64,000 bases of DNA, taken from NCBI GenBank assembly GCA_964019135.1, contig OZ025252.1, positions 47,900,959-47,964,958 of the forward strand, in the 5' to 3' direction. Origin of the DNA: Arenicola marina. Lineage: Eukaryota > Annelida > Polychaeta > Arenicolidae. The notes under the pieces were generated by a model that worked only from the letters and a program-made list of their open reading frames with translations, did no database searches and had not been told where the DNA came from. Both the position numbers and the translations under genes were made by a program. Positions 1-60,000 of this stretch are shown piece by piece. Position 1 is the stretch's first letter. Each line of letters opens with the position of its first letter.

Positions 1-319
1 GTGAAAGTATAGACATTATTTCTGCTGAAATGTCTTATTATCTTTTGATCGAGTGATCGAAGAGAACGGATTTGCAATTTAACGACTTGAGATTAAACTG
101 CGTTCTAATAATATTCCCGTGGTTTGGATTATATAAGGTGTCTAAGGCTATAAATGTAGAACACGCCAACTGACAAGAAAAGCATCCTCTTCCCAACAGA
201 TATTAATGGAAATGACCCTCCAACCTAGGTACTCGGTATCTATACCGCCGTCTTTTGTTGTTGTAAACATTATCTCATATACCACTTACTTACATTATCG
301 CTCATGGCCCTCTCCCCAG

Positions 320-3800: not shown

Positions 3801-6800
3801 CTCAGTCAGCTCATCGGTTTTATGAGTTGTAATTTGTGGAGTAAACAGTCATTTTTCTTTTAACCATTCGAGTAAACAGTTTGAAATTTGCTAGCATTTT
3901 TTTCACCAGATGACTGACGTGGTTCCCTGCTGCATTTAAAAAAAAAGTTTGTTTTAACCCTTTGTTAAATCCCTTTCCTCATTGTATGATGTTTGTCCTT
4001 ATATATCCGGCAGGAGCCTGCGCGAGGCTTGGGAAGGTCTGAGTGACGAACTCTCGGAGAGCCAGCGCCAGTTTGAAGTGGCTCTCGTCCAACTCTCGTC
4101 GTTCGAGGACAGCTTCGACCAGTTCCAGAAGTGGCTGACGGAGACTGGGTCTCGGATCAGTCTGGACGCCGAACTCAAAGCCACTCTCCAGGAGAAGAAA
4201 CTCCAGCTGCAAAACCACAAGGTACGTCCTCTTGGGACGCCATACTCTAGAAGTTGTTATGTCATCGTGGTGACCTGTTCTGTCACACACCAGCTACAGT
4301 GCGCAGGTTAAACATTATGTTACGTGTTTCCCTCCTCCCCCGCCAGAGGCAGCACCAGGGCGGTAAGTTACATATTGCCCTTCGACCCCGCCAGATGAAA
4401 CACCTCAACTTTAACTAGCGTGTTTCCCTCCTCCCTCGCCAGGTGCAGCACCAGGATATCCTGTCTCACCAGCACGTGTTGGATTCGCTGTCGGAGCGCG
4501 CGCAGGGCCTGAGGCAGCGGGCCAAAGAGTCACGTGTCTCGGACAAGATCGCCGCCCTGACCAAGCAGTACCGCGACCTGTGCGCCTCTAGTGACGGCCA
4601 GCTGCGGCAGATGGAGGGCGGCGTGGCCGAACACCAGCGCTACCAGGACGCCTTCCTAGAGTGCCGTGATAAGATCTCCGGCCTCAGGGATAAGCTGGCC
4701 GCCTGCTCGGACACCACTGGAGATAAATTCGCCGTGCAGAGCAAGTTAGACGGAGCCGAGGAGCTGAGGAATCAAGCCGATGACCTTGACGTTAAGGTCA
4801 AGCATATCCGTGACCTCTGTGATAAGGCGATGGTTAACACGTCGGCGCCGGGGAAAGAAACGCTGAAGCGCGACGTCGGTGACCTTAATCGTGACCTTCA
4901 GGGGCTCACCTCGGATGTGGGCGAGGCAAAGGTTAACCTACAGGGGGTTCTGCGGCAGTGGCAAGAGTTTGAAGACTCCCATGATGCATTGCTGCAGTGG
5001 CTCCACCGCACGGAACAACAGGTCAAGGACACAGAACTCAAAGCGACGTTAGAGGAGAAAGAAAGTCAAGTCAGCAAACTCAAGGTCAGTAAATATTTAC
5101 TGGATTTTGTACTTTGTATGTAAATTCTTTGCCGAATTTGTATTCTTATCCGAATGTTCCGTATTCAGGAAGCAGCCTGCATATTAGCTGTCATGAATAT
5201 TGCTGATTGGTGGACTTAAATGAGTGTTATTTTTCATTTAACACAGGACTTGAGATCGGAGATCGCGACGAAGCAGAGTGACTTGGACACGTTTGGTGAC
5301 GTGGCGCAGACGCTGACGGCCACCAGCAGCGACATGCGGATAGCTAACTACGTCTCCCAGGCCGGCGTCCGGTACACTGCTCTCCAGGCCTCCGCCAAGG
5401 TCAGTGTCACATGGTCATCCTCAGCCCGAAGATACTGCTGTAGCGACATGTATGCTTGTAGTGTGGGGCTGCTTCATCTCAGATCAAACCTTCGGTAGAG
5501 GAATGTTTACATAATGTTAAGAATACAATGTTAACTTTATCTACATTTTATCTAAGTTTATCTAAATGAGGTCAAAGTCAACCAAATGTTATTGTCTAAT
5601 GAGTCCCGGCGACAGTTGCTTGCGTTATTTAAACAAAAAAAATACATGCAAAAATGTATGTATTAAAGGGAAATTCTATTGTGTGTATGGTAATTAATGA
5701 TCAGGTTATGTAACTTGACGCTTAACCCTGGACTTATTGGTTTATGAACATTGAGTGGCGTCAGCAAAGCGCAGGCTTCCATTTTGTAACTGGCTCTATG
5801 TGTTGATACAGGATCTTCTGGCGAAGTGGGAGCGACTTGTAGCCGACCATGTCGAATACAGGGACACCTACACTAACCTAACCACGTGGCTAGAGACGCT
5901 CAAGGACAAGCTAGAGGGCATAGCCGCATTGGCAGCGGATCGAGGGACGCTGGAGCAGGCCAAGGATCAGGTCTCGGTAGGTGGTCACCCAACGCATGAA
6001 GCCCGCCATGACTCACCCCCAGTAAATGTCACTATTCTATTATAGTATATATAATACAGGATGTGGTCATAATAGTAAGCTTAATTTTGGTGTCGAAGGC
6101 TTATTCGTCAATTATGGTTTACTATGGGTCTGGTGTGGTGTTTCAATCCAATATAAATTGTTGACCGTTCTGCGCGTTGAAAGATTACTGAATTATGGGG
6201 TCCATTGGGCTAGTGACATTCCCGATGGACGTGCGATGCTAACGCCCCCCACCGGTGTGTCCGGCCACTAACGCCCCCTATCGGCTCTGACAGCTCCTGA
6301 TGGCTGACCGGGACTCTGGCGTCGAGCGGCTCCAGACGGCCACCCAGCTGGGTGAGAAGCTCTACCCGGACACGGCGGCAGGGGGTCGGGAGGCCATCCG
6401 CCACGACCTGCGGGCCGCCAAGGACCTGTGGGACGGCCTGCTGGCGCGGGTGTCGGACCTGCAGCGCCGCATGGAGGCCGGCCTGGTGCTTTGGACCGCC
6501 TACCGTGAAGGCGCCGCGCAGCTGGACCAGTGGCTCGGCGAGGTGGACGCCGCGCTGCGTGCGGACGCCGAGCTGCGGAACACGCTGGCCGAGAAACGCG
6601 CGCAACTGCAGAGTAACAAGGTCAGTCGGAGGTCACTTGTGTAGCGCTGTTTCGCTTACCTCATTTCATGGTATTTGTATGGTTCATATTTCTGCGCTGG
6701 CAGCTTTATTTTATTTGGAAAGTGGTTTATTTTCATGTTAATATATTAGATTCCAACATATTCAGTATTGCTATATATTTGTCTCTGCAGGCTCTGCTGC

Positions 6801-9800
6801 AGGACGTGACGTCACACGGGCGGGTGGTGGACAGTGTGGTGGAGAAGGCTCAGTCCCTGCTTCAGACCGGAGATGACCCCCAAGTGACCCAGTTTGTCAC
6901 TGAGACCAGGGCCAAGTACACCGCTCTACACAACATGGCCAAGGTAAGCCTCATGTTAACGTTTTTTTCGCCCTAAGCGGTTTCTGATGATAACTACCTA
7001 AAATACGGAATTGTGAAGGTCAAGACCTCCTAACATAGCGATTGTTGAGGTCAAATACCGGTGGTGAGGTGAAATAGGAAATAATGTCACGACATCTTTA
7101 ACATTGCGGAAATTAATCCTGTGCTATATAACTCCTGGAATGTATGGGGGGTCTAGACCTGGTGAGGCCCCGGTAAAGCACTGTTGGCCACTGCAGTGAC
7201 CATATGATAGAGCGTGCGGCGGTGTTTCTGTTGCCCCAGGCGACCATTGAGATGTCTGAGCAGCGCGTGACCAACCACGCCCAGTACCAGGACGCCTTCC
7301 AGACGGCCTCTGATTGGCTGAAACTGATGCAGGACCGACTGAGCATGTGCAGCGACCTGTCCGGCGACAAACACTCCATCTCAAACAAGCTGGACAGAGT
7401 TCAGGTATCTGCATTGATGTGAAACGTGGCTTTAGCATGGATTTTAACGTGTATCGATGCTGTGTTTGAATCAGTTTTTTATATGAAAATAACTAAATAG
7501 CAAAAAAATAAATAAATAATTGTATTCAATATTATGTCTCAATGGTGAAGGCTCACGTCGAACTGGTGTCAGTTGGGGGTTCGTGTTAAGCATTTAAATT
7601 TATTGTGTGGTTATTGTACAACATGGTAGAGTACTGGCACTGTCACTGGGGCTGTGATTGAGACATACAGTCATATAAGACACTGTGGCACTGTGTCTGA
7701 GGCTCTGACTGTCAGATCAATGTCTTACCGGAGATCAAAGGCCATTTTGTAACGTATGTATCTCATGACGTCACAGGACTTGGCTGGTTCCCTGAAGGAC
7801 GGCGAAGACCGTGTGTCGGCGTGCGAGTCTCGTGCCCAGGTGGCGCTGCCGCAGACGGGGGCTCCAGGGAAACAGTGCCTGGAACGTGAGTTGGCGGGTC
7901 TGCGCCAGGACTGGGAGCAGTACTCCGCGGACCTGGATCAGACCCTCGCCCGGCTCCAGGCTACGCTGACACAGTGGCAGCGGTATGAAGAGGCCTACAG
8001 CGCGCTGGAACACTGGGTCAAGGACATGGAACGCCAGGTCAAGGACGCCAGTCTCGTGGCCTCGTTGGAGGAAAAGAGGGCGCAGGTCAAGAAGTACCAG
8101 GTAATTTGGGAGTGTTGTCTCTGTACGACCCAATGTGTGATCTATATGCCTACGGGACTCGCCGTGACGCCGGCAGAGCGCTTCCGACGGGATCTCAAGT
8201 GATAAGGGGTTCAAACCTCACCCATCTGAAACGTGTCTGAAGCCGTTACATTGCCATGGGAGGTCCCATGGCCCTGTGTGGCCCATGTGTGTACAAAGGT
8301 TACCTAAATAGGGATCTATCCATCATACTCTTTAATATTTGAATGTAGCAATAAATGTCATCACTGTTGTTAATGTTAGTCAGGATGGTATCAGCGGATG
8401 AAGATGTGTCATCCATCTTGATAATTTACGTGGCCTATACCTGACAATGGGTGGCATATACCTGACCAATGGCTGGCCTATAACTGACGAATGGCTGGCC
8501 TGTCGCTGGCCTAGGGCCTATCGCTTGCCTGTCGCTGGCCTACTGGCCTATCGCTGGTCTGTCATGGCATATACCTGACCAATGGCTGGCCCGTCGCTGG
8601 CCTGTCGCTGGCCTATCACTTGTCCTAACCATGTTTTGTGGACGGGTGAGAACACGTGTTTGATGGTTTCCTTGCTCGCCGCTAGGGTTTGTCGGAGGAC
8701 GTGGACGCCAAGGCTGACGACATCTCTGGCCTAGCCACTCAGGAAGACGTAAGACTGGGTTACAGCTGCACGCGTAGTCTGGGCGGCGGGCCTGGTGTCT
8801 GCCTCTGGGACCCTTATTTACTCCTTTCAGTTCCATAGATATTGGCAATGCTTATGCGAGCACGCCTTTCACTTTGTTTACGGTTTGTGGGATGCTTGAC
8901 TTACCTCATCCAACCCCTTTGTTTTTATTCACCCCCCACCCACCCCCCTACAACCTTATTGCTTATGGTACTATGGACCGTGGTATACCCTTTAGACCCC
9001 CCCCCCCCCCTTCCATCCTGTTGACCGTAGGTTTTGGTTTCTTCCTTGCTGTCCTATTAACTACTTCATGTGATGCCCCCCCCCCACCCCACCCCCGCCA
9101 TTACAACCAAGCATTAAGCCCGCTGATATCATGGGTATGTTTACATCATGTAAGCATATTAACATGTTTGTTTACAGTTTCATTTATAGGGTGGCGGCAT
9201 GAATTATGTCATTGAACTTTGTTTTTTCCCAGTGAAATGCATGGCGTTTTCGTTTTGTTTCATTTCCCCTTTTGAAATTACAGAATGTCAGACGACTACT
9301 TCTGCATTTTTATTTCCCTTTCCAACATTACTTCCTGTCACCCAATTTCGAAGTATAAAATAGAAGGTTGTTTATGGGCCTCGTGGCTAAGGTGTTCTCA
9401 CTATTATGATGCACGGCGAGGGTTGGCTTTGAGGCGAGGATGGCAGTTACATATAGATTAACATTGCATCACTCAACATGCCAGTATGCATTAGGGAAAT
9501 CTGGGACTGGCAAAAATAGAATCCCGCTTCAGGGTGCAGGGTGATTTGTGACTCATGCATGCGGTAACCTTTCATTGTTTCATTTACTTTAATTTGTGAC
9601 ATTGTAACTAAGCTCTTATTTACTGTTTAGCTTTGGTGTTTACTGGCTTATGGTGCGAATGGTCCTTAATAAAATATAACCCAAGAATTACCATCTGTCA
9701 TCTGTATACGACATAGACGAATATTGCCTGAATACTTTTACCAATAAGTGTGCCTTTTACTCTAAGTTGTTGTCCTTCGTAACTTCCTATCATGCTTGTT

Positions 9801-12800
9801 TGGTAGTATCGGAGAATATTTCACCGGGATGAGAAGTTTAATTCTAAGGCTCGCGTCTTACTGGGTCAGGTGTTCATTGATTTGTCACGTGATCGCAGGC
9901 GTTGCTGCAGAACGCGCGTGGGACGCAGACTGACGTGGATCGCGTCACTGACGAAGGTCAACTGCTGGCCCAGGACACCGGTGAAGGTCGTATCACTACC
10001 TACGTCACCCAGATCAGCAACCGCTACCAGTCACTGATCTCGCTGGTCAAGGTGAGAGCGCGCTGTGACCTCGTTACCAATGTCACCATCCTCTTTAGTG
10101 GTCTCCTCTCTCAACAGAAGCCTACTGACGGCATTAAATATGTGTGTCGTGTTTGAGATATACCGGCTCATTAAAGATACTTAATTAAAGACGAAGCTGG
10201 AGATTTTAAGCTAATTTACTAAGTTAATTTTAAACGTCTTAGTGTCATTGCCCGCTGACTTTGTCATCAATTTACCTTCAGTTTATCCTAATACCCACAA
10301 TGACTTTATCTCTACCTCCACCCCCCGCGTTACCGCAGGACCTGTTACGTAAGAGCGAGCAGCACGTGGTCGACCACGAGAGCTTCGAGGTGAAGCACAG
10401 CGAGGCACGCGATTGGCTGGACGCCGCCAAGGCGCGGTACGCCGGCCTCGTGTCCCTGACGTCATCGCGGGACGACCTGCAGACCAAGCGCACCGCCGTA
10501 CAGGTACAGCTTGGGTTATATGATCGGTGCCAAACTGTCTGTCTGCAGAAGTTGACGGTAATGCATTTAAGTTAAAAATTGTATTAGCAACACAGATTAG
10601 GACAGTATTTTTCTTTCACGTGTAGAAATGGTAGCGAAATGGAGGGAGATCTTGTTGTAGTCATGTACCACTGGTCAACCTAGTGCAACTGCGAACGATT
10701 AGCTTGAGTACGTGGCCCTGCATCATCAAATAATGAGATTAATGATGATTTACGTGGAGTCTGGATTTTAATGTCTTGCTGTTTGTTTGCCCTTGGCGGG
10801 AGTAGGAGTTGAAAGTCTTGCTGCTTGTTTGCTTTTGGCGGGAGTAGGAGTTGAATGTCTTGCTGTTTGTTTGCCCTTGGCGGGAGTAGGAGTTGAATGT
10901 CTTGCTGTTTGTTTGCCCTTGGCGGGAGTAGGAGTTGAATGTCTTGCTGTTTGTTTGCCCTTGGCGGGAGTAGGAGTTGGTCCAGGACAAGGACAATGGC
11001 TTCAGCCTGCTGAGCGTTGCCGTGGAGACCGGGGAGCTGCTGTACCCCAACACCTCGGCCGACGGTCGGGACCACGTGCGCCAACAGCTGCGCCAGCTCA
11101 AACACGACTGGGATGCCCTCTATGATGACGTCATGGCCTCGCAGCGCCACCTGGAGGTCAACCTGGTGCAGTGGACGTCGTTCGAAGAGAGCTTCGAGCA
11201 GCTGGAGGGGTGGTTGGTGGGGGTGGAGGGCCAGCTGGCCGCCGAGGTCCCCCTCGTGGCCACCTTGGAGGAGAAAAAAACACAGCTACAGGCCTACAAG
11301 GTGAGCACTTTCACTGTCACACAGCTACAGGCCTACAAGGTGAGCAATGTTACTGTCACACAGCTACAGGCCTACAAGGTGAGCACTTATACTGTCACAC
11401 AGCTACAGGCCTACAGGGTGAGCACTGACACAGCTACAGGCCTACAAGGTGAACACTTATACTGTCACACAGCTACAGGCCTACAGGGTGAGCACTGACA
11501 CAGCTACAGGCCTACAAGGTGAACACTTATACTGTCACACAGCTACAGGCCTACAAGGTGAGCACTGACACAGCTACAGGCCTACAAAGTAAACACTTAT
11601 ACTGTCACACAGCGACAGGCCTACAAGGTGAGCACTTATACTGTCACACAGCTACAGGCCTACAAGGTGAGCACTTATACTGTCACACAGCTACAGGCCT
11701 ACAAGGTGAGCACTTATACTGTCACACAGCTACAGGCCTACAGGGTGAGCACTTATACTGTCACACAGCTACAGGCCTACAAGGTGAGCACTGACACAGC
11801 TACAGGCCTACAAGGTGAGCACTTATACTGTCACACAGCTACAGGCCTACAGGGTGAGCACTTATACTGTCACACAGCTACAGGCCTACAAGGTGAGCAC
11901 TGACACAGCTACAGGCCTACCAGGTGAGCACTGACACAGCTACAGGCCTACAAGGTGAGCACTTATACTGTCACACAGCTACAGGCCTACAGGGTGAGCA
12001 CTGACACAGCTACAGGCCCACAAGGTGAGCACTTATACTGTCACACAGCTACAGGCCTACAGGGTGAGCACTGACACAGCTACAGGCCTACAAGGTGAGC
12101 ACTTATACTGTCACACAGCTACAGGCATACAGGGTGAGCACTGACACAGCTACAGGCCTACAAGGTGAGCACTTATACTGTCACACAGCTACAGGCCTAC
12201 CAGGTGAGCACTGACACAGCTACAGGCCCACAAGGTGAGCATTTATACTGCCACACAGCTACAGGCCTACAAGGTGAGCACTTATACTGTCACACAGCTA
12301 CAGGCCTACCAGGTGAGCACTGACACAGCTACAGGCCCACAAGGTGAGCATTTATACTGCCACACAGCTACAGGCCTACAGGGTGAGCACTGAAACAGCT
12401 ACAGGCCTACAGGGTGAGCACTGACACAGCTACAGGCCCACAAGGTGAGCACTTATACTGTCACACAGCTACAGGCCTACAGGGTGAGCACTGACACAGC
12501 TACAGGCCTACAAGGTGAGCACTTATACTGTCACACAGCTACAGGCCTACAGGGTGAGCACTGAAACAGCTACAGGCCTACAGGGTGAGCACTTATACTG
12601 TCACACAGCTACAGGCCTACAGGGTGAGCACTGACACAGCTACAGGCCCACAAGGTGAGCACTTATACTGTCACACAGCTACAGGCCTACAGGGTGAGCA
12701 CTGACACAGCTACAGGCCTACAAGGTGAGCACTTATACTGTCACACAGCTACAGGCATACAGGGTGAGCACTGACACAGCTACAGGCCCACAAGGTGAGC

Positions 12801-15800
12801 ATTTATACTGCCACACAGCTACAGGCCTACAGGGTGAGCACTGACACAGCTACAGGCCTACAAGGTGAGCACTTATACTGTCACACAGCTACAGGCATAC
12901 AGGGTGAGCACTGACACAGCTACAGGCCCACAAGGTGAGCATTTATACTGCCACACAGCTACAGGCCTACAGGGTGAGCACTGACACAGCTACAGGCCTA
13001 CAAGGTGAGCACTTATACTGCCACACAGCTACAGGCCTACAGGGTGAGCACTGACACAGCTACAGGCCTACAAGGTGAGCACTTATACTGTCACACAGCT
13101 ACAGGCCTACAAGGTGAGCATTTATACTGCCACACAGCTACAGGCCTACAGGGTGAGCACTGACACAGCTACAGGCCTACAAGGTGAGCACTGACACAGC
13201 TACAGGCCTACAAGGTGAGCATTTATACTGCCACACAGCTACAGGCCTACAGGGTGAGCACTGAAACAGCTACAGGCCTACAGGGTGAGCACTTATACTG
13301 TCACACAGCTACAGGCCTACAAGGTGAGCACTTATACTGTCACACAGCTACAGGCCTACAGGGTGAGCACTGAAACAGCTACAGGCCCACAAGGTGAGCA
13401 CTTATACTGTCACACAGCTACAGGCCTACAGGGTGAGCACTGACACAGCTACAGGCCCACAAGGTGAGCACTTATACTGTCACACAGCTACAGGCCTACA
13501 GGGTGAGCACTGACACAGCTACAGGCCTACAAGGTGAGCACTTATACTGTCACACAGCTACAGGCATACAGGGTGAGCACTGACACAGCTACAGGCCCAC
13601 AAGGTGAGCATTTATACTGCCACACAGCTACAGGCCTACAGGGTGAGCACTGACACAGCTACAGGCCTACAAGGTGAGCATTTATACTGCCACACAGCTA
13701 CAGGCGTACAAGGTGAGCACTGAAACAGCTACAGGCCTACAAGGTGAGCACTGACACAGCTACAGGCCTACAGGGTGAGCACTGACACAGCTACAGGCCT
13801 ACAAGGTGAGCATTTATACTGCCACACAGCTACAGGCGTACAAGGTGAGCACTGAAACAGCTACAGGCCTACAAGGTGAGCACTGACACAGCTACAGGCC
13901 TACAAGGTGAGCACTTATACTGTCACACAGCTACAGGCCTACAAGGTGAGCACTTATACTGTCACACAGCTACAGGCCTACAAGGTGAGCACTGACACAG
14001 CTACAGGCCTACAAGGTGAGCACTTTTACTGTCACACAGCTACAGGCCTACAAGGTGAGCACTTATATTGTCACACAGCTACAGGCCTACAGGGTGAGCA
14101 CTTATACTGTCACACAGCTACAGGCCTACAAGGTTAGCACTGACACAGCTACAGCTACAGGCCTACAAGGTGAGCACTGACACAGCTACAGGCCTACGAG
14201 GTGAGCACTGACACAGCTACAGGCCTACAGGGTGAGCACTGACACAGCTACAGGCCTACAAGGTGAGCACTTATACTGTCACACAGCTACAGGCCTACAA
14301 GGTGAGCACTTATACTGTCACACAGCTACAGGCCTACAAGGTGAGCACTGACACAGCTACAGGCCTACAGGGTGAGCACTGACACAGCTACAGGCCTACA
14401 AGGTGAGCACTTATACTGTCACACAGCTACAGGCCTACAAGGTGAGCACTTATACTGTCACACAGCTACAGGCCTACAAGGTGAGCAATGTTACTGTCAC
14501 ACAGCTACAGGCCTACAAGGTGAGCACTGACACAGCTACAGGCCTACAAGGTGAACACTGACACAGCTACAGGCCTACAAGGTGAGCACTTATACTGTCA
14601 CACAGCTACAGGCCTACAGGGTGAGCACTTATACTGTCACACAGCTACAGGCCTACAAAGTGAGCACTTATACTGTCACACAGCTACAAGCCTACAGGGT
14701 GAGCACTTATACTGTCACACAGCTACAGGCCTACAAGGTAAGCACTGACACAGCTACAGGCCTACAGGGTGAGCACTTATACTGTCACACAGCTACAGGC
14801 CCACAAGGTGAGCACTTATGCTGTCACACAGCTACAGGCCTACAAGGTGAGCACTTATACTGTCACACAGCTACAGGCCTACAAGGTTAGCACTTATACT
14901 GTCACACAGCTACAGGCCTACAGGGTGAGCACTTATACTGTCACACAGCTACAGGCCTACAAGGTGAGCACTGACACAGCTACATGCCTGCAAGGTCAGC
15001 ACTGACACAGCTACAGGCCTACAAGGTGAGCACTTATACTGTCGTAATCTGCCATAATCGTATTGTTAGCTGTTAGCTTACCATCTCTACATTCTACGCA
15101 CCGTGTTTCATCTGTCTTGTTTGTTTTCGGGAGCAGTTGTATATTTATAGGAGATGACCATTGACATGAGTATTTCGCTGTTGGTAACAGAGGAAAAAAT
15201 ATATCTGTTGACAAAAAACATATCGTGACAAAAGATTGCCAGACTTGTTTCATGGCGGCCATTTAGAAAGTAAAATATTCGGCTGTCACTGTCGTGGTAT
15301 CGCACCCTTTGTAAATTAATTCATTATTTGATGAATAGATTAGTTTTTATATTTTGTTGTTCAATGAGATGTCATTCTGTGTTCTTTATCTCTGCTGTTC
15401 TCTGTGTTTGCAGAATATCAACCAGGATGCCATGTCTTACCAGCGCGTTATCGACAGTGTCCTTGAAAAGGCGAAATCCCTGGCAAGGTCAAGCACTGAC
15501 CCTCAAGTCACCTCTAGGATGAGTCAAATCAATGATCGCTACGCGAAGCTCTGCCAGACGAGCAAGGTCAGAGGCGCTTGATACACCATTGCATGGCTGT
15601 GAGGTCTAAAGTACATATATTGTACATGTATCATGTACGCAACAACTTTCAAATTGCAATGATTAAAGTTATGGTAGCCTTATAAAGGGTCAGGCTTATA
15701 AAGTATGTACGACAGACAAATGGTACCTTGATAATAACCGCTCTTTGCCTTGTGTCCCTGTAGGAGTGCGTGTCTCGGTGTGAGTCAGTGGTGAGCGAGC

Positions 15801-36800: not shown

Positions 36801-39036
36801 GTTAAAGGCACCCACACTGGTATGATTTGCACCGAATGACCCAATGTGATTTTGATTGGGATAACCTAGTTCCGGAACGCAACGTTTGTATTATGATACA
36901 CAACAAATCCACGAAACAAATGGATCATCCAAGAATCTTATGAGCAGCTCCCAGAAGTTCACCTTTGGCAATATAACGGCTGTTCACTGTCTTTAGGTCC
37001 TGAGGTCACTGAGTGCATTCGTATCGGCGTGAGTGCCTTTATAGCAGTCATTATAGTGTGTATTTGCTTCAGTCTTTATGTTGTCCAACTTGCATTGTGG
37101 CTGCGATATGATGTAATAGTCTGTCATCGCAATGCAAGACATGATTTAATTGGACTTCCCAATCACAAACCAATTAAACATTAAATAGTTTTGTCTTGAT
37201 TTTTGTTTATTCCAGATCGTTTTACTTTGTTGTGTTGTAGAAGCCTTCACTATGTTGCACCTTTGGTTGTAGTACTGTAATTATTTATTACACGCGACAT
37301 AATTTGCGCTCATTACCGTACCGCACGCACCATTGGATGTTTACATAATGTGGGAACATTCTCAAGAAAAAGACGCTAAGGTGCCCCCCCCCCCCCCTCC
37401 CCCCCATGATGTACACGTGTTGAACACAGGTTGTACAATCAGTGTACACAAGTTGTGCACTGATTGTCTACATGTTGTATACCGATTGTATACAGGATGT
37501 ACACAAATTGTATAGGTTATGCACAAGTTGTACCAAAGGTGTAAACGGTTGTATACATATCTGCATTGGGTAGCCATTTTCTATGTGTGTGGTACATGGT
37601 CTATCCCCCCCCCCCCACTCCCTCCTTCCCTCCCTCCCTCACGACGCCTCCCCTTTCGCCCCACCCATAAATACCCCACGTCCTTCTTCCCAGTGGGTAG
37701 GGGGTTGTCCTTTTCTAGTCAAAGACAGTTCACATATATTTCACAGTGTATATAAGTATTAAGATAAGCATGTAAGGAATCCCTTTACATGGCACAATGA
37801 GAGTGCCCTTTTGTTGATGTAACCCTGGGCCGAGATATCCTGCCCCATTATGGCTGGGACGCCTGGACAATAGAACTACATTATGGACTTAGTTTTTGTT
37901 ATATATTTATATATATTGTAGGAATCCGGCTTTTAGACATTAGAATAGCAGACGGCGATTAATAACTTACTACAGGCTACGATAATATATATTTCATTTA
38001 TTTGTGAAACCTATATTATTTTGCGTCCTGCCAACCCTTCTCTCATAGAGAGAGCACCCTGACCCCTCAGCACGTAAACAGTTCACCATTTGTGCCTGTC
38101 AAACGCCACTGATCTGTGTGTTTGGTAATCAAACAAGATGTTTATTCACATTTTTTGCCCGGCTTTAAATTGCTTTTTACTCTCGCTGTGAAATCAACCG
38201 AAGCCTCTGCTGACAAGAAACACAAATATTTGCCATCATCTCTTGTCATGATGTTATGAATGGAAGAGAAAAATACAGACCGTTCAAGTTTTAGCTTGCC
38301 CTATCTGCCTCCCCCCTCCCTCCCACCGCCAACTACGTACCGGGTAAACACCTTGGAGCTAATAAGAATTAAATAGTTGATGTGTACCTGACAGACTGGC
38401 GCAATGGGAATAGAACGGGAGGAGTGAAAGACGAGGACAGGGCAGGGTTCTTAGGGGTGGCACACGGAACAGTAGGACAGGGTAGGTGAGGGCAAGGTTC
38501 GTAGGGGTAGCAGTGGAACATTAGGTAAACAAGAAGGCTAGGGCAGAATTAGAGGGGTGACACATGGAACAGTAGGACAGGGGAGGTGAGGGCAAGGTTC
38601 GTAGGGGTAGCAGTGGAACATTAGGTAAACAAGAAGGCTAGGGCAGAATTAGAGGGGTGACACATGGAACAGTAGGACAGGGGAGGTGAGGGCAAGGTTC
38701 GTAGGGTAGCAGTGGAACATTAGGTAAAAAAGGGGGAGGGCAGAGTTAGAGGGATAGCACGGGATAGTAGGTAAAACTGAAGGCTAAGGCAGAGTTGGAG
38801 GGGTGGCACACGGGATAGTAGACAGTAGGTTTTTTGTTATGCCGCTTTTTCGGCTGTGGGGACAAGTCCAGCTTGCGCCGGGCGCCCTACCACTGGACCG
38901 TGGCGAATCATTGAAGTGACTCGGTAGAGTATAGTATCTATGACGACATATAAATGGTGTCCCGGTAGAGGGGAGGAGGAGGAGGGGTTGGTCATATGGC
39001 CGTTAGGTTGATATTCTGTTTGTATGCACCCCCCCG

Positions 39037-39069
<33 letters not shown>

Positions 39070-45000: not shown

Positions 45001-48000
45001 GCAAGCTCTGTCCTGTCTAATGATAGTCCTCAAGTGTGTAGTCTCAAGTACCAAAATCTGGTGTCTTTCTGATATCAGACATCATTAAAAAGTTCTGTGT
45101 TATGGATACAAAAAAGCTTGTAGTGTATGTAAAGTGTAACGGGACAATTTGGAAATAATAATTATATCCTAGCAAAAAGAATGTAACACTTACTACCTAA
45201 ATATGTCCCATTCTGAGCTGCATTAATACCGGAAATATTAGATGTTTATAAAGAGCCATAAAGCATGAAGCTAGGCAAATGTGACCCCTTCAGCTAGGCT
45301 CATTACTTTTAGTAGTCCAGACCATGCACGTTAATTGTGCAATATTGTGGGATTTCTCCTAACTTTCCTATATTTAAAGTAATTTTTGTGGGGAAGTATT
45401 ATAATGATATATATTCTTCATGGCGATTTTAGTGAAACATTTGATTTCTTATTATATTTTGAACCGCTTCGTTATTGTTTCAGACCTCCGATAACTCTGA
45501 CACGAGCAAAGAGCGAGGCACCCAAACGCCACGCAAGAGTCGTCGAGATTCCCAGCATTCAACGCGCAAAAACGGAAACGGAAGTGCGGCCCGGAGCGTC
45601 TCGCCTAATCCTGGCAGTGGTGACCGGTCACCACAGCGGCCGAGCCGAATACCCAGGCTCAGTAAATCTAGGTCAAGGTCAAGGTCTGATTCGAGGTCAC
45701 CGAGACGGTCGCTGTCGGGCAGTCGCCTGCCACGTCCTGTGGGCACGCGCTCGCTCAGCTTGTCTCCCACGAGGACGTACTCAGCCGGGATCGCCTTAGA
45801 CCCAGAGCCCAGACCCGGAAGCTCGCCAAGCTGGAGAGGCGGGCGGAAGCTGCCGGATGTAGGTAGAGTCTCACTTCCGGAACTATGCAGGCAGGCCGAA
45901 GAGGAGGATTTCGCCGACGATGAAGGACCAAGGTCAAGGTCGCGGAGGCCAGGCAGCGGGCGCCTGCTTCCGCGGCCGGCGGCAGTAGGCGCGGGGGGTG
46001 TTGGGGCGTGGGGTGGGCCTGGAGACAGCGCCGGGACCGACCGTGTTAGCCACCCCGGGCCGCCATTGCTCCAAGGACGGGCGGCCGGCGGGTCTGGCAC
46101 TCCCGCGGACCCACTGTCACGCACCTTCCCCGGATCTCTCCGCTCCGTCAAGTTTGCCGTAACCTCGTCCGAGAACGGCTACGACGTCAGCGCCCCTAGC
46201 GAGAGCGACACGGATGGTTGCCCTGAAAACGTGGTCCAAGCCGTGCTGGAGGCGGACTTAGCCCTGCAGGAGAGGATGTCGGTGCGCACCGGGAGTGCGC
46301 ACGGCGCGGTGCCGGTCGACCTCAAGGACTGGTATCCACGGACCAACGCCGAGAACGCCCGCCTCCATGGCAACGGGACGCCGGTGCGGGTTATGTACAT
46401 CCGGGATGAGGACAGCGGGTCATTGACGGACGCCGCCAAACAGGCCCTCAAGGAGGCGCCCCCTGTCGGCGGACCCCGGGCCAGCCCGAGCCAAGGTCAA
46501 GGACAAATGGAGCGAACCAGTAGTCGCGTCAGCGTTGTCATTGACGACAGCCATGGATCTGAAGAAGTCTTCCGGATCACCAGCCGAGGAGGCGGCGCCG
46601 GCGGGGGAGGGGGAGGGGCGGAGAGTCCCTGGCTCAGCGGAAGTGGACGCTGCAGCGTGACCTCGCGAACCGGAAGCGAGGCGGGAATCCGGCGAGAGAT
46701 CGAGGTTCTGGAGCACAACGTCAGCCGGATGACGGAGGTGCTGCGTCCCCGGACCTCCGTGACCTCCAGCGACGTGGACATGTCTGGAGATCGCTATGAC
46801 GACGATGAGGATGAGAGGCGGTCCTGGCACTCCGGATCCACGGAGCCGGATCCCTGCCAGGACGTCGACACGAGGGAGCTGGGAACGCAGACATTACGTC
46901 ATAGGAGGACTCAGACTCCGGAGAATGCTAAAACACAAACTATGCACGCCAGTCGGCGGCAACTACCGTACGGACCCGGGAACACGGGGTGTTCCAGCGA
47001 GGACTCGGACGACGGGTGTGACGTCACTGACTTAATGAAACCCGTCCGACAGTCGGGCACTGGTTCCCTGCGCTCTACCCGCCGCCAGGAGGCTGGTGCC
47101 GGGGACATGGCTGGGTCCCTGCAACTGCGGGTTACTAAGGACACGACCCAGCTGCCCGAGTACCTGCAGGAGTACCAGCGGTACATGGAGTCGTGCGACG
47201 ACGAGGAGGGGGAGGGGGAGGCATCCGAGGGGGAGGGGGAGGCATCCGATGGGCAATTGGAGCCTGGGGATGGCGACAACGGCGCCCTGTCCCATAGCGA
47301 GGACGAGGACGATAATAGGGGAGAGAAGGCCAGAGACAATGGTGGTGGTCGTCATTTTTCCGCGCAGCGCATGGCACAGAGCTTTAATGGTGTAACAGAC
47401 AACGTATCAATGCCCACAAACGTCAGACTCACCCGTAGTAGTAAATGTAGCACCGTGCCTGGAGACTCTGCCAGCGGGGCTGCCGGGAACGATAACTTTA
47501 ACCACGCCGCTGACAACCTGGTCAGCGTGCACGACCACGTGTTCACGCACGAGTCGACGCGGATAACGCCCAAGATGGCCGCCGTTGTGAGGAGAGAAAG
47601 CGGCGGGCGCTCCGCGCCACGCGGCACGGCGCGCGCCGAGGGGTCCGACCCCCGAGTGCTGAGCACGTGGGCAGGCTCTGAGACAGCGCCACGTGGTCAC
47701 CATGTGAGGGGTGGCGGCGAGGGGGGTCAGAGTGCGACCCGCAGACCTCACAGCGCCATGGAGACGCCGTCGAGAGGCTTCGGGGAGGCAGACAGTGAGG
47801 AGGATGGCGACAGCGGGTTTGATCACGTGACCGGTTCACGTGGCCGCCCCCACCGGCCGGCCTCGGCACTCGCCGCGAGGTTGCGCCGTAAATCGGCCGA
47901 TAGGTATGAGGAGGAGCCAGATGCCCGGATATCGCGAGGGTTTCTGGGTGAAGTTCCGGAGGGATCCAGAGAAAAGCAGTCGTGGGAGATCCTGACCCGG

Positions 48001-51000
48001 GGAGGGAGTGCCCGGAGCGTGCGGCCCGGCGGTGGGGGTGGTGCGCGGGACGCCGCCCAGCAGACCCTCGTGGACGGCGCCTCGCAGACACCGCTCAAGA
48101 TCCGCTTCAGCGAGGCGGCGCGCGAGGGCGTCCCGCGAGGGGCCGCCACTGTCGGCAACACTTTCGTCATCGAGTCCGACTCGCGCGCGGCGTCCATGGA
48201 GCCGTGGACCCTGCTGGCGCCCCGGGATCTGGACATCTTGGCCTCCAGGGACTTCGCCACCCAGACCTTTGGCCAGTTCTACCCGGATTGGCAGATCCAC
48301 GCGCTGACGCAGACCGCTGAGTCCCGGATCCGGACTCCCCCTCCGGCGGAGCCCCTGCAGCAGGACGACTGGACCCAGACTCTGGATCACCGGGCCACGC
48401 AGACCTCCCCCATCCTCCAGCTACTGATGGCGCCAGGCGGCCGCTATAACCATGGAGACGCTGCCTGTGGCGGGAGGATGCGCGCGGCTGGTAACCAGGG
48501 TGATGACGTCATAGAGGATGATTGTTCTGGCACCATTGCGGCGCGGGGCGGAGGAGACATGTTTGGGAGGAGGGGCGGTTCGTCCCGGGTGTCTGAGATG
48601 AGAGCGTCGGTCGCGAGTGACGGAGAGAAGGAAGAGGAACGAGAGCAGGAACAGAAGCGTGGAGAGGAGGAGAGGAGACGCGAGGAAGGGGAGCGGGAGG
48701 AGCAACGGAAACGTGACGCGGCCAAGGAGGGTCTGGAGAAGGCGCGACTGTACGCGGAGCTGGAGAGGCTGAGGGGGGAGGGGGAGAAGCTGAGGGGCGA
48801 GGGGGAGGGGGAGAAGCCAAGCCGAGAGCGGCGGAAGAAGCACAAGGAGAAGAGGAAGTCACGTGGTGGTGGCGTGGCCACGCGGGACGCTGCCTCGGAG
48901 GCGGCCACGCTGACCTCTGACCTCACCCGGCGTGACGTCCTCAGACTGATGCTGAGCCAAGTGCGTCATCTCAAGCGGCAGGTGGAGGAGCGGGCGGGCG
49001 GGGGCGGGGAGCAGGGGGCCGCACCCGACAAGGCCAGGGCGGTGGAGACAGACAGCGCCATCGAGTCTGCGGCGGAGAATGAGGAGCGAGACAAGCTGTA
49101 CACCAGGCGGCGCCTCGAGCAGCTCTACAGCCGCTTTCAGCCGGACACCGCGACCGGCGTGGTGACCGACGCGGACGTCAGGGGGCGCCACCGGGAACCG
49201 AGACGCGGCCGGCGGGAGAGGAGACACAGTATTGAAAGTCTCCATAGTGACCATGGCGACGGGGACGGGGAGGATGGGGGGCGACCCCGGGAGCGCACCC
49301 CAAGTAGGGAGCGTTACCATGACCACTATGGGTACCTCCGGGAGAAGTACATCCCTCGCAGCAGGTGGAGCATGTACTCTCGGGAGCCGCCGGCACAGCG
49401 TTACCATGACAACGATGGGGGGTACAGGGAGGTGTCGCCGCGCCGAGCGATGACTCCACCGGCGACGTATGTGGGGGGTGATTACAGGGGCCCTCACCCC
49501 GACCACTACCAGTGGTCTGCCCCCCCGCGCCGAGACATCCCCGTGATGTCGGTGAGGCATGCACCCCCTCCCCCGCCACCCATGGCTCACCCCCGGCCCC
49601 CTGTCATGTACAACCCTCATTACGGGGCGGGCCCCCCCACTCACATGCACCCCGGTGTCCACTACCCAGCCGCCCCACCTCCCACGTACCCCCAGGGTCC
49701 GCCCTTGCAGGGTGCCATGCCCCCACGCACCATGCCGGGCACCCCCGTCCAGCTAGGCCACGGCGCCTTCCGCCCCATCGGCCCCACCGGCCCCCCACCC
49801 CTGGCCACCCCGGTACGGGTCACCCCTGTGGTGTACCTGACCGGGGCAGGGGTGAGCAACCCCCAGGCTGCGGCCGCCGTTCGGGGCTCTCCTCACCCAC
49901 CCTACATCGTGTTGGCCAGCCCCGCACCCCAGAACCCCCCTCTCGCTACCCCCACACAGGTGGGGACCCACTCGCCCCGCAAGAACCGCGCCCCACACGA
50001 ACAACGACCGTCGTCAGAGCGACCGTCGCACATGGACACCATCTCCAAGGCCACGAAGGCTGCCATGGAAATGAAATCATTGACGTCACAAATGTCCGTT
50101 CGCAAGTGATAACCCTGGCTTTCTAAGGACTTGTCTAAACGATGTTTTGACTTAATCGTTATGAGATTTTACACTAGTTAAGTAATAAATAATATTTATC
50201 TGTGATATTATCTTCTGCTGTGTATCGCCAAGTATTTATATTCTTACGTCCTTCCTGCTATTTTATAATAATTTCCATGGCCATCGCGATGAGTGTGTAG
50301 GTTATGTACGCTCGTGAAAAGGAAAAGTTCGACAATGTTATCCACACGCTTGATTGTCGCTCTAAATGTTGTAACGTTTGATTTGGACACTGTAGCCTAT
50401 TAATATACTTGTGGGCTAACGATGTATACGCTTAATATAACAAACGATATGCCTTTTTTTTAATCCAGTATAAACAGATATTTTTGTCAGTTATGAATAT
50501 ATAATTATCAACGTGTTTGGGCTTCGCTCTGGGATAGACTAGTCTATTCCCGCCACCAATATACCACACATATCAAGTGCCTGTCTCCTTGTTGGTCTCC
50601 GAGCCTCATAGGTATGGTGTGTCGCCCAACGTGCGTCGTCCAACGTGCGTCGTCCAACGTGCATCGTCCAACGTGCGTCGTCCAACGTGCGTCGTCCAAT
50701 GTACGTCGTCCAACGTACGTCGTCCAACGTACGTCGTCCAATGTACTACGCCCAATGTGCGTCGTCCAACGTACGTCGTCCAATGTACGTCGTCCAACGT
50801 ACGTCGTCCAATGTACTAAGCCCAATGTACGTCGTCCAATGTGCGTCAGGATTAAACCAATTAAATCCATTCTGCTATAGTGTCTTTAGTGTAGAAAACA
50901 ATGAACTATTTAAATGAGATGTTTTCATGCCATGTTCAGCATACGAATCCGTCCACTTTGACCCACTGTAATACCAGTGTATAGATATATATGTGTGATA

Positions 51001-54000: not shown

Positions 54001-57000
54001 ATGCAACATTTTTCTTGGCAAAAAAAAAACTTGCCCCCAATATCTCCAGTGTGGAATGCCTCATATATCCACAAGTCAATTGATAAGTCAAACATAGTTA
54101 GATTAGCGTAGAGAGAGATGGTGCAGCGCGCGGTGCGTGATGGGAAAGTTGCTTTCGACATGTGGAGGTAACATTACGTGGTTGCGAAAAAAGGAAGGTG
54201 CCAAGAAGGTGAGCGATATAAAGTAAACTCTTGAAGTCAGCTTTCATCGCGGCCTCCCCACCCCCCGCCTCCCCCGCCTCCCCCTCCCCCGCTTTGAAAT
54301 CCAGAGAATGGAACTCTTGATTCTTCATTCTTAATTGTTAACAAAGATGGAGTACCTCGGGGAACACACCGCATTATGGGGCGCCGCATTATAGAGCCCC
54401 GCATTTTAAAAGAACACGTGAAGGGTGTCTATATCCAGTCGCCTGGTCTGGTGGCCCATTACAGAGAGAGTGGGGGGGGGTCGTCCCAGATGGCATGGTC
54501 CACCACGACGAGAACTGCTTCGCCAGACCTTATCTAAGAGAAAGCGACAGGACATCGATGCGATGACTTGCAATGTCTACATGTCTACATAACATGGAAT
54601 TACCTCATTGACACGGAATAAACTGCAAGCCATTATCTTACGTAGACGGGCGGATGCCAAGAGGAAGAAGGTGTTGGATATTATCGCATGGCACGCGATT
54701 CATCCACTGTCATACATTTAATATAATGTCATACATTTACATATACTGTCATACATTTACATATACTGTCATACATTTGCATATACTGTCATACATTTAC
54801 ATATACTGTCATATATTTACATATACGGTCATACATTTACATATACTGTCATACATTTACATATACTGTCATACATTTACATATACTGTCATACATTTAC
54901 ATTTACTGTCATACATTTACATATACTGTCATACATTTACATATACTGTCATACATTTACATATACTGTCATACATTTGCATATACTGTCATACATTTAC
55001 ATATACTGTCATACATTTACATATACGGTCATACCTTTAATCTACTGCAATTTTCTCTTCCTCAGCGCGTGAAGCTCGTATATCCATGGAGTCTGGCACG
55101 TGGATGCCACGTGTTTGTGGTTTGGTAACTTAGTAACGCCGTTCCTTGTCTCCTCCCCACAGGACCTGAGTGAGGCGCTGAAGGGGAAGAGGGGGGAGGT
55201 GGATGAGCTGAGGACCGCTGCGAAGGTCGTCACCCCGGACATCAGCCAACATGATGGCGAGCTGGTGCAGGACCACGTCAGGTAACCTTGGAGTGGAGTC
55301 CCAGTGTGTAATGTATGGCGCAGGACCACGTCAGGTAACCTTGGAGTGGAGTCCAAGTGTGTAATGTATGGCGCAGGACCACGTCAGGTAACCTTGGAGT
55401 GGAGTCCCAGTGTGTAATGTATGGCGCAGGACCACGTCAGGTAACCTTGGAGTGGAGTCCCAGTGTGTAATGTATGGCGCAGGACCACGTCAGGTAACCT
55501 TGGAGTGGAGTCCCAGTGTGTAATGTATGGCGCAGGACCACGTCAGGTAACCTTGGAGTGGAGTCCCAGTGTGTAATGTATGGCGCAGGACCACGTCAGG
55601 TAACCTTGGAGTGGAGTCCCAGTGTGTAATGTATGGCACAGGACCACGTCAGGTAACCTTGGAGTGGAGTCCCAGTGTGTAATGTATGGCGCAGGACCAC
55701 GTCAGGTAACCTTGGAGTGGAGTCCCAGTGTGTAATGTATGGCGCAGGACCACGTCAGGTAACCTTGGAGTGGAGTCCCAGTGTGTAATGTTTGGCGCAG
55801 GACCACGTCAGGTAACCTTGGAGTGGAGTCCCAGTGTGTAATGTATGGCGCAGGACCACGTCAGGTAACCTTGGAGTGGAGTCCCAGTGTGTAATGTATG
55901 GCACAGGACCACGTCAGGTAACCTTGGAGTGGAGTCCCAGTGTGTAATGTATGGCGCAGGACCACGTCAGGTAACCTTGGAGTGGAGTCCCAGTGTGTAA
56001 TGTATGGCACAGGACCACGTCAGGTAACCTTGGGGTGGAGTCCCAGTGTGTAATGTATGGCGCAGGACCACGTCAGGTAACCTTGGAGTGGAGTCCCAGT
56101 GTGTAATGTATGGCACAGGACCACGTCAGGTAACCTTGGAGTGGAGTCCCTGTGTGTAATGTATGGCGCAGGACCACGTCAGGTAACCTTGGAGTGGAGT
56201 TCCAGTGTGTAATGTATGGCGCAGGACCACGTCAGGTAACCTTGGAGTGGAGTCCCAGTGTGTAATGTATGGCACAGGACCACGTCAGGTAACCTTGGAG
56301 TGGAGTCTCAGTGTGTAATGTATGGCGCAGGACCACGTCAGGTAACCTTGGAGTGGAGTCCCAGTGTGTAATGTATGGCGCAGGACCACGTCAGGTAACC
56401 TTGGAGTGGAGTCTCAGTGTGTAATGTATGGCGCAGGACCACGTCAGGTAACCTTGGAGTGGAGTCCCAGTGTGTAATGTATGGCGCAGGACCACGTCAG
56501 GTAACCTTGGAGTGGAGTCCCAGTGTGTAATGTATGGCACAGGACCACGTCAGGTAACCTTGGAGTGGAGTCCCTGTGTGTAATGTATGGCGCAGGACCA
56601 CGTCAGGTAACCTTGGAGTGGAGTCCCAGTGTGTAATGTATGGCACAGGACCACGTCAGGTAACCTTGGAGTGGAGTCCCAGTGTGTAATGTATGGCGCA
56701 GGACCACGTCAGGTAACCTTGGAGTGAAGTCCCAGTGTGTAATGTATGGCGCAGGACCACGTCAGGTAACCTTGGAGTGGAGTCCCAGTGTGTAATGTAT
56801 GGCACAGGACCACGTCAGGTAACCTTGGAGTGGAGTCCCAGTGTGTAATGTATGGCACAGGACCACGTCAGGTAACCTTGGAGTGGAGTCCCAGTGTGTA
56901 ATGTATGGCGCAGGACCACGTCAGGTAACCTTGGAGTGGAGTCCCAGTGAGTAATGTATGGCGCAGGACCACGTCAGGTAACCTTGGAGTGGAGTCCCAG

Positions 57001-60000
57001 TGTGTAATGTATGGCACAGGACCACGTCAGGTAACCTTGGAGTGGAGTCCCAGTGTGTAATGTATGGCGCAGGACCACGTCAGGTAACCTTGGAGTGGAG
57101 TCCCAGTGTGTAATGTATGGCACAGGACCACGTCAGGTAACCTTGGAGTGGAGTCCCAGTGTGTAATGTATGGCGCAGGACCACGTCAGGTAACCTTGGA
57201 GTGGAGTCCCAGTGTGTAATGTATGGCACAGGACCACGTCAGGTAACCTTGGAGTGGAGTCCCAGTGTGTAATGTATGGCGCAGGACCACATCATGTAGC
57301 CTAGTAGTGTCTATACCACACATGTATATAAGTGTAGATATAAGCCTTTATTAAAGCAATATTCTCTGAATGTGCAATGCATAGGACATTCTGTTACCTC
57401 TTCATAGCATTTTTGCTGGCGCTAAAGCTGCTTAGACATGTTGTTAGGGTAAGATTGCCGAGAGGTTTAACATTGGTTAGCGTCTGACAACAACAGGCTA
57501 ACAATCGTCCTTATGTAAAAAGAAACAGTTTGGATAGAAATAAAAAAAAATGTTGTATACATTGAAAGCCCTTCTCACATGCCTTAAGTTGAGGTGATCT
57601 GTATGACCGTTCTCCGCCCGAGGGATGACGGCGTTACCTTTGCCCGTTACAGCACCATCGAGCGGAAGTTGTCGACGGCCGAGGAGCGCGTGGAGCGCCA
57701 CCTACAGGCGTGTGAGACGGTCGCCCAGAGCCTCGATTCCATCCTCGCCGACCTGGCTGAGTGGACCACGTGGCTGGAGGACACACGCCCCCTGGTGGCC
57801 AAGCACCCGGTCCTGGGGTTCAGCGTGGAGCAGATACAGAGCGTGCTGAGAGAGCACACCGTGAGTGTCTACTGGCTAAAGTCAAACAAAGAGCAATTAA
57901 ACTTAAAACTTAAATATCTACTTCCAAAACTGAAGACCGTGAGTGAAGCCGGTTCGGCCGTTTACATTTGATGTAATAGTAACAGCTAACAGCGCAGTAA
58001 AATTGCTATAAATTTAGTATTAGTAGCTTTGATGTTGATATGCTCGTCAGCCGGTCATCCTATTGCCTAACATTGTGTCTTCAATACCGCCGCGAACCCA
58101 TGTGTGGAACAGTGCGTGTGTCTATCTCTCCGGACCTTCTGTTTTTGGCGACCTTCTTTCCCTCCTGACCTCCCGTCTCCACTAACCTCCTGTTCCTCCG
58201 GATCTCCTAACCTCCTGTCCCCCTGACCTCCTGTACCTCCTGACCTGACCCCCTGACATCCTGTCCCTCCTGCCCTGACCCCCTGCCCTCCTGTCCCTCC
58301 TGACCTAACCCCCTGACCTCCTGACCTAACCCCCTGACCTCCTGACCTGACCTCCTGTCCCTCCTGACCTGACACCCTGCTCTCCTGTCCCTCCTGACCT
58401 GACCCCCTGACCTCCTGTCTGTCCTGACCTCTTGTCTCCCCTAACCTCCTGTCCCTGCTGACCTCCTGTCCCTCTTGACCTCCTGCCCCTCCTGACCTTC
58501 TTTCTTAGCGTGACACTGCTTGGCTACCATGCGAGAAAAGCATCTGATCACGCTTGAGTGTTTTGTTTTGTTTAATCGCCCACACCCTAATCTGTAAAGA
58601 CGGAGCACCCGATAGCTGGAAAACGGATCACTTTGCGTTCGTTCCATGTGTTACTGGCATCACTATCTTACATGTAAATATGTTGCTTGTATATATATAG
58701 TATGTCTATGTAGTTTTGTATATGTTGCTACCATTATTTGGGATTACTGTTACCGGCCCATGAGTTTCTCCTGTCATAATATTTATATTACCTCCTGGTA
58801 TGCCAAGCAGATATGACTGTGCTGTATGCAAACGTAAGATATTGTCTCACTCGTATCATATCAACTGTTCTATTTGCTACTGTATCTATCATGTTAATTG
58901 TTTATCTCATTTTACCAGAGATGACCTGCAGGTTGTAAAGGAAAATAATCACCCATGGTATTGCACCAATTGTATAACTGAAATATTTCCTTTTAATGGC
59001 ATAACTGAGACTCTGGCCTTCGAACTTGCTATCTCGTCTAGTAGTGTCAATAATTCTCGTATTCCATTGGTCGAGCTTGAAAAACAGTTGTTTAATCCAT
59101 TTGAGTTAAACTCGGACTACAACGTGCCGCTAAATGACACTGATCCTGATGTAAATTTCTATGTAGATTCATCCGTGAGCATGTCAAATTGCAAATACTA
59201 TTTAGAAGACTCCTTCAATGAGTCATGTGACGAATTTAGACCCGAAGATTTATCGTTTTCCATTATGCATATGAACATACGAAGTGCTCAAAAAAACTTT
59301 TCACAGTTTGGATCCTATATTGAAACCCTAAATCATGATTTTGCTGTGTATGCTTTTACTGAAACCTGGTTTAACGACAGTAACGTTGATTGCCATGGTT
59401 TGGACAGTTATCTCCCTGTCAATAGTTACCGACAAGACAGAACTGGTGGAGGGGTTTCAATGTTGATTAAATCAGGAGTTAATTTCAGCAAGCGATCGGA
59501 CTTAGATGTATTTAATGAAAATATTGAAGCTTTATTTGTGCAACTGGATAAGGGAGCTCATGTAAGCCAGAAGTCCATTTTAGTGGGTGTAGTTTACCGA
59601 CCACCGGATACCAACATTGTTGTATTTATTGAGCATTTAGACGAGCTATTGCATAAGATTAACTCTGAAAAAGTGGTTTGTTATCTCGCAGGAGATTTTA
59701 ACATTAATCTGCTCAATATGGACTCACATAGACCTACAGCTGATTTTATCGATTCAATGTTTAGCCATGCGTTTCTACCCGCCATAAGTAAACCGACCAG
59801 GGTAACGAGTACCACAGCCACACTGATTGATAATATCTTCACTAACGAGTGCGATATCAATTCTTCCCTGAAAGGCATTATGTATACAGATATCACAGAT
59901 CATTTTCCTGTATTTTATATATCAGAGTATGTTCAAATTAATGTTGACAGAGTTACCATCATGAAAAGGAATGTGAGTAAGCCAAATGTTGAGAATTTTG

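Follow-up and report, generated by a model that had tools for sequence, protein, structure and literature searches.

In a 64,000-nucleotide window of the Arenicola marina genome (contig OZ025252.1, positions 47,900,959 to 47,964,958 of the forward strand), which lies within a 189-kb gene that appears from its sequence to be a nesprin gene (SYNE1-like), tandem repeat arrays straddle exon-intron boundaries, and they do so mainly at splice donors. When the whole gene was scored together with seven myosin loci, boundary arrays were found at 20 of 192 donors and at 3 of 192 acceptors (Fisher P = 3.3e-4). We propose that these are probably minisatellites of the mirage type described in amphioxus, that the donor excess reflects a bias in birth or persistence toward the start of the intron, and that the extra donor copies are by-products that selection has not favoured as spares. 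The window means this whole stretch throughout; coordinates refer to it unless a contig or another locus is named, and those below 1 or above 64,000 continue the same scale into the flanking DNA.

The test set comprised 193 exons with 192 donors and 192 acceptors. To cover the whole nesprin gene, 100 kb was added on either side of the window, and this part contributed 134 exons, 133 donors and 133 acceptors. The myosin part contributed the 59 exons kept from 63.7 kb of sequence, in stretches that are clusters of Myosin_head exons and were chosen by exon density before their repeats were viewed. Exons were found by dynamic programming on codon use and splice signals, and the calls were based on coding frame, splice signals, family lengths and homology. 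Nesprin predictions were retained only if they measured at least 60 bp, lay within the gene and avoided the uncertain stretches (-63600 to -62900, -44100 to -43500, -37800 to -35900, 1400-1560, 8680-8750, 43000-50200, 81900-93100 and 122800-123030). Predicted exons that did not read as myosin were dropped in loci L026, L028, L029, L030 and L031, and one L028 exon had its donor placed by eye at the edge of the array. On contig C4 (367768-384767), several exons match the same myosin-head stretches, as in the alternative-exon clusters of muscle myosin genes.

In the nesprin gene, Tandem Repeats Finder (TRF) reported 113 arrays of period at least 10, with a total of 63.8 kb. Nineteen of them touch one of the 267 junctions, 14 at donors and 5 at acceptors. 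A boundary array was defined as a TRF array with at least 4 exon bases. By this definition, 13 of the 133 nesprin donors and 2 of the 133 acceptors carry one, as do 7 of the 59 myosin donors and 1 of the 59 acceptors (Fisher P = 0.06 in the myosin set alone). The result was similar when TRF was not used. When each junction sequence was sought in its own surroundings, local copies turned up at 22 of 191 donors and 4 of 192 acceptors, where swapped neighbourhoods gave an expectation of 0.3-0.7 donors, depending on the threshold, and 0.34 acceptors. An ungapped copy search gave 18-21 of 191 donors and 1-3 of 192 acceptors across four settings.

Some boundary arrays are to be expected in any case, since a duplication straddling a junction may survive when one of its copies still yields the correct exon. 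The chance that a junction bond falls inside the birth unit was therefore estimated from the purely intronic arrays of the same loci, using the shortest fitting TRF period per array. This uniform-birth model predicts 5.0 boundary arrays per side, or 6.0 once the uncertain stretches are removed. The donor excess over it is three- to four-fold (P = 3e-7 with 5.0 expected and 5e-6 with 6.0 expected; P values throughout treat arrays as independent). It was observed with strong splice sites only (18/180 against 5.6 expected), with arrays of at least 150 bp (20/192 against 3.4), with units of at least 25 bp (19/192 against 4.6), and with all filters combined (18/180 against 2.8). The excess is mainly a donor effect, and acceptors are not distinguishable from background. 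Other nulls proved misleading and were replaced by this model: one that considered only insertions no more than 6 bp from the junction expected 2.4 against 19 observed, and those allowing 15 or 30 exon bases expected 8.0 and 13.0 (P = 4e-4 and 0.06).

The positions of arrays within introns point in the same direction. We placed 117 of 158 arrays in array-free intron coordinates, leaving out introns that overlap four uncertain intervals and arrays outside introns between kept exons; overlaps between arrays put 2 of those placed beyond the 0-1 range of relative position. Thirty-six of the 117 start less than 20 bp from the donor, against 10.4 expected (21 at 0-6 bp, with 4.5 expected, and 15 at 7-19 bp, with 5.9 expected), while the acceptor side has 13, against the same 10.4 (6 at 0-6 bp, with 4.5 expected, and 7 at 7-19 bp, with 5.9 expected). 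Among the 54 arrays of at least 150 bp, 20 are at the donor against 2.4 expected (P = 2e-12). The 90 arrays that include no junction also crowd the intron start: its first 30% holds 46 of them and its last 30% holds 25 (P = 0.017), which indicates a bias toward intron starts that extends beyond the exact splice site. Examples of arrays in the window that lie near a junction and contain no exon bases, both on the forward strand, are one of a 22-bp unit (28516-28612), which starts 19 bp after the donor at 28497, and one of a 31-bp unit (22878-23589), which stops 5 bp short of the acceptor at 23595. In locus L030 (reverse strand, 1-4689), a 53-bp array of about 88 copies ends 4 bp before an acceptor.

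An earlier note on the window had proposed that minisatellites in this gene arise at splice junctions, and had named eight of them: the acceptors of exons 6, 16, 22 and 43 and the donors of exons 16, 22, 25 and 48, all on the forward strand. We found a duplication or array at all eight, each in the place named, although the array at the exon 22 acceptor only abuts it and the copy at exon 43 is degenerate. Exon 16 (10974-11300, 327 bp) and exon 22 (20028-20192, 165 bp), both of family length, do have an array on each side. At exon 16, the acceptor array (10763-10979) is a 42-bp unit repeated 5.2 times with 6 exon bases, and TAG|GAG is intact in all 5 copies counted; the donor array (11280-15043) has a 39/31-bp unit, 21 exon bases and, by walking along it, 97 copies, with GT intact in 96 of the 96 extra ones. 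At exon 22, the upstream array (18989-20029) is a 50-bp unit repeated 20.8 times that includes only 2 exon bases and has TG in 19 of the 20 copies counted, with AG only in the copy touching the exon; the donor array (20161-20383) is a 72-bp unit repeated 3.1 times with 32 exon bases. The acceptor of exon 6 (4443-5084) has an extra copy at 4323-4359, comprising a polypyrimidine stretch, CAG and about 13 exon bases (local copy score 28). The donor of exon 25 (21775-21955) belongs to a two-copy duplication, with the second copy at approximately 22036-22175 and its donor at about 22078. At exon 43 (acceptor 34149, 177 bp, with no family length to compare), the extra copy (34057-34093) lies 67 bp upstream and shares 11 of 12 exon bases; it was recognised by eye, was missed by both automatic scans, and is outside the automatic counts. 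Finally, the donor of exon 48 (55163-55281, 119 bp) carries an array at 55263-57309, a 53-bp unit repeated 38.6 times with 19 exon bases and GT intact in all 37 extra copies.

The same note had held that the copy touching the exon is the one giving the family exon length, so that growth was into the intron, and this was supported wherever it could be checked. The nesprin gene is built regularly of phase-0 exons, which measure 153, 165 or 324/327 bp and are sometimes fused (489, 642, 480) or split (119+208, 156+171, 165+159). Exons 16 and 22 have 327 and 165 bp, exon 6 has 642 bp (153+165+324, fused), exon 25 (181 bp) adds up with 22375-22673 (299 bp) to 480 (327+153), and exon 48 adds up with 57653-57860 (208 bp) to 327. 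Genome searches, in which very common words were skipped, matched the exon 22 donor unit once, at its own place, and the exon 48 donor unit in 17 overlapping matches, all inside its own array. The two units are matched nowhere else in the genome and were therefore made locally. As a general statement, the association of arrays with splice junctions was borne out in part: arrays cluster at exon edges beyond chance, but the excess is at donors (20/192 against 5-6 expected), with 3/192 at acceptors, a bias that the balanced set of four acceptors and four donors masked and that became visible once the whole gene was scored. Likewise, the expectation that repeats overlap splice sites more often than chance genome-wide, tried here on eight loci of one genome, held for donors and not for acceptors.

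Donor arrays differ from intronic ones in several respects. Their median length is 680 bp against 107 bp (P = 1e-6), they have 13 copies against 4, and their units measure 55 bp against 24 bp. The coding strand is G-rich in 15 of 20 donor arrays and 53 of 127 intronic ones (P = 0.04). With arrays subtracted, the introns that host donor arrays measure 175 bp against 359 bp for array-free introns (P = 3e-5); with arrays included, they are longer than the others (912 against 416 bp). The strength of the donor does not differ with and without an array (P = 0.49), which speaks against weak donors as the cause of arrays. Purely intronic units were not clearly enriched in donor-like motifs (of 109 units, 14 ranked in the top tenth of shuffles; KS P = 0.07). 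Of 22 donor arrays, 17 have the junction between 25% and 60% of the way along the unit (KS P = 0.007), but this band was picked after viewing the data and the result is therefore not leaned on.

The events that would produce such arrays can be outlined as follows. A stretch of about 20-80 bp straddling the exon end and the intron start would be duplicated in tandem, and the array would then extend into the intron by slippage or unequal exchange, up to 3.8 kb. The copy next to the exon would remain the working donor, as the exon family lengths suggest, and the other copies would be skipped. Duplications on the donor side would be tolerated because the exon-proximal 5' splice site wins. Boundary arrays at acceptors would be no commoner than uniform birth predicts, and a bias of birth or persistence toward the 5' end of the intron would produce the donor excess. 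The likeliest cause of this bias may be transcription-coupled instability at intron starts, for example R-loops on G-rich non-template DNA, a suggestion with weak support.

Several observations weigh against this explanation or limit its reach. The R-loop proposal has one weak test behind it, that of G-richness (P = 0.04). At acceptors, the combined set gives 2 or 3 arrays, a shortfall against uniform birth that is not significant in any subset or under any filter (P = 0.065 to 0.59), and purging of acceptor copies was not shown. Among the arrays of at least 150 bp, there is even a small excess at acceptors (6/54 against 2.4 expected, P = 0.04). The acceptor-adjacent array of L030 has 88 copies of CGCCAG ahead of the true acceptor, so copies resembling an acceptor need not do harm. 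Nothing in the explanation predicts that the host introns should be short. The GT of the extra donors is slightly better conserved than the rest of the unit in a simple test (mean 0.97 against 0.94, P = 0.04). Use of the exon-proximal donor appears likely from exon lengths and protein homology. All counts come from one genome and eight loci.

The notion that 5' splice sites themselves are birth hot spots for tandem arrays, coupled to transcription and leaving a boundary-spanning array at about one donor in ten, is one that we advance tentatively. A pure filter of selection, under which births are uniform, exon-internal and acceptor duplications are purged, and intronic and donor ones survive, with no bias of birth at donors, seems unlikely. 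It would account for the strong contrast between donors and acceptors, for the family length of the exon-touching copy where this is checkable, and for the upstream copies at exon 22, which have TG instead of the acceptor AG in 19 of 20 cases. However, purging elsewhere cannot produce a three- to four-fold excess of donors over the intronic background, the junction-free arrays are also concentrated at the intron start, and acceptors are not significantly under background.

The greater length and copy number of the donor arrays would also be consistent with a bias of persistence alone, in which the first copy, preserved by purifying selection, serves as a clean template for re-seeding the array, so that boundary arrays outlive intronic ones. 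We consider this improbable, since acceptors should then be affected to the same degree, yet show little or no excess, and arrays near donors are enriched even when they contain no exon bases.

Are the extra donors then kept because they are useful? The earlier note had mentioned selection for spare splice sites, and extra donors could boost U1 recruitment or back up weak sites. At first sight the copies agree with this. In the 20 donor arrays, whose units measure 18-83 bp and the largest of which reaches 97 copies and 3.8 kb, GT is retained in 412 of 428 extra copies, and it is the part of the unit that the simple test found better conserved. The wider splice window, by contrast, is no better conserved than the rest of the unit in these arrays (P = 0.38), and the donor score of the first copy is slightly above that of the other copies (P = 0.06). 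A refined test excluded indel columns and CpG sites and took in only those arrays, 17 in number, that have 7 or more extra copies. Substitution per site was 1.8% in GT, 2.3% in the exonic rest and 4.0% in the intronic rest, and both GT bases were unchanged in all copies in 11 of the 17 arrays; the proportion of unchanged sites in each array predicts about 9.8. The case for strong selection on GT at 11300, where it is kept in 96 of 96 copies, was weakened in the same way, as 15 of 31 usable sites of that array are unchanged too. Copies share ancestry, and small differences in conservation are thus not strong evidence. Use of the second donor is predicted to add a stop codon in 11 of 20 arrays, to cause a frame shift or an ambiguous outcome in 5, and to give a stop-free in-frame addition in 4 (donors -2813, 11300, 75367 and 105236); in most cases, correct expression would therefore need the first donor. 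Nor are donors with arrays weaker or stronger than those without. GT is thus at most slightly better kept, and we read this as little or no selection on the extra copies, with the extra donors as by-products. Selection for spare sites is not supported, and we give it very little credence.

The earlier note's other suggestion, that repeated GC-rich homologous exons drive unequal exchange at their edges, would fit the regular 153/165/327 series of the nesprin gene, but it is largely refuted by the myosin loci and hardly credible: the donor rate is similar in myosin-head genes (7/59 against 13/133), whose unique exons form no such series, so that homologous exons are not needed, both edges would be expected to behave alike, and the two units tested are unmatched elsewhere in the genome.

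The probable assignment of the gene to nesprin (SYNE1-like) follows from a CH-domain-like start at about -60,100, a KASH-like end at about +128,200, and matches to spectrin-repeat profiles in the window. Both ends were recognised by eye, without a profile. Five of the ten open reading frames scanned in the window match Pfam Spectrin or Spectrin_SYNE1 profiles. PF25034 scores under its curated cut-off in each of these five, and PF00435 passes its own cut-off in one. A single open frame of 1548 aa (45463-50109, forward strand), probably a giant exon, has no Pfam match. Another open frame, of 1122 aa (58764-62132, forward strand), carries endonuclease and reverse transcriptase domains and is a LINE-like element in a nesprin intron.

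The genome assembly is 867 Mb, and the contig that contains the locus measures 49.9 Mb and ends about 2 Mb away from it. In the mitochondrial contig (15,942 bases), all 21 tRNAs found and the scanned protein frames are on the forward strand. The proteins are in the order nad4L, nad4, nad1, nad3, nad2, cox1, cox2, cox3, nad6, cob, atp6, nad5, where nad2 was assigned by position and a general profile and nad6 is below its curated cut-off; the scan covered neither atp8 nor the rRNA genes. This order matches all four annelid features given in PMC2639372 (nad6/cob after cox3, atp6 between cob and nad5, nad5 and nad4L/nad4 interchanged, nad3 between nad1 and nad2), and the host is therefore an annelid. 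The same gene order led to the rejection of a cephalochordate host, an idea prompted by the reports of mirages in amphioxus. Several small contigs (C443, C465, C504, C330, C652, C497, C684, C232 and C609) have strong protein-kinase matches with in-frame TAG/TAA, which looks like DNA of an organism that reads TAG/TAA as amino acids, such as a ciliate. Among the matches listed, contig C3 has dozens of kinase-like single open frames, mostly of about 280-320 aa, and on C5 (5402476-5437356) at least five kinase matches, spaced about 8.5 kb apart, share one score.

If the donor bias is true genome-wide, splice donors would be a defined site of DNA instability, linking transcription or splicing to the birth of minisatellites. 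Such arrays would then also provide a natural competition test, in which an exon is followed by up to 96 extra, near-identical, GT-intact donors and the machinery must pick the first. There is a practical consequence as well, as gene predictors are misled at such arrays: the initial exon prediction here placed false exons inside them.

How do these arrays compare with known systems? Ordinary intronic or subtelomeric minisatellites (variable number tandem repeats) share tandem units of 10-100 bp, and our locus is about 2 Mb from a contig end; they differ in that the arrays described here carry exon bases and splice signals, begin at the donor, and also occur in myosin genes on other contigs. 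Introns are reportedly gained by tandem duplication of AG|GT segments (the Rogers model, with a potato RdRp case). Tandem duplication that copies splice signals is common to both, but the introns here are mostly at family positions and were enlarged by duplication, and no newly created intron was shown. In earthworm metallothionein genes, large minisatellites lie in an annelid intron, the first one, and the accessible part of that report describes no boundary-spanning copies (PMC12783039).

The closest parallel is offered by the mirages of amphioxus, which are minisatellites spanning exon-intron boundaries in the Adh3, globin (BflGb6 and BflGb9), troponin C and PGBD5 genes (PMC3087553, PMC3902484). 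The earlier note had not known the phenomenon as a described one; mirages are already described, and the kind is therefore known. According to these reports, the two have in common tandem repeats across the boundary and many copies with splice signals, the authentic one at the exon, with units of 10-160 bp there and 18-83 bp here. The splice dinucleotide is kept in our arrays in 412 of 428 GT copies and in 5 of 5 AG copies at 10974, and is absent in 19 of 20 at 20028. In amphioxus both boundaries can be duplicated (PMC3087553), whereas the bias here is strongly toward donors. Two amphioxus haplotypes of one gene have 6 and 3 units, where we have one assembly, and RT-PCR suggested normal splicing there, while our arrays are known from DNA alone. 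The present host is an annelid, and its arrays reach 97 copies and 3.8 kb. In the open-licence literature, we found no report of mirages in annelids, nor of a donor bias. As far as these searches show, the annelid host, the scale and the donor bias are new, and boundary-spanning minisatellites are not confined to lancelets.

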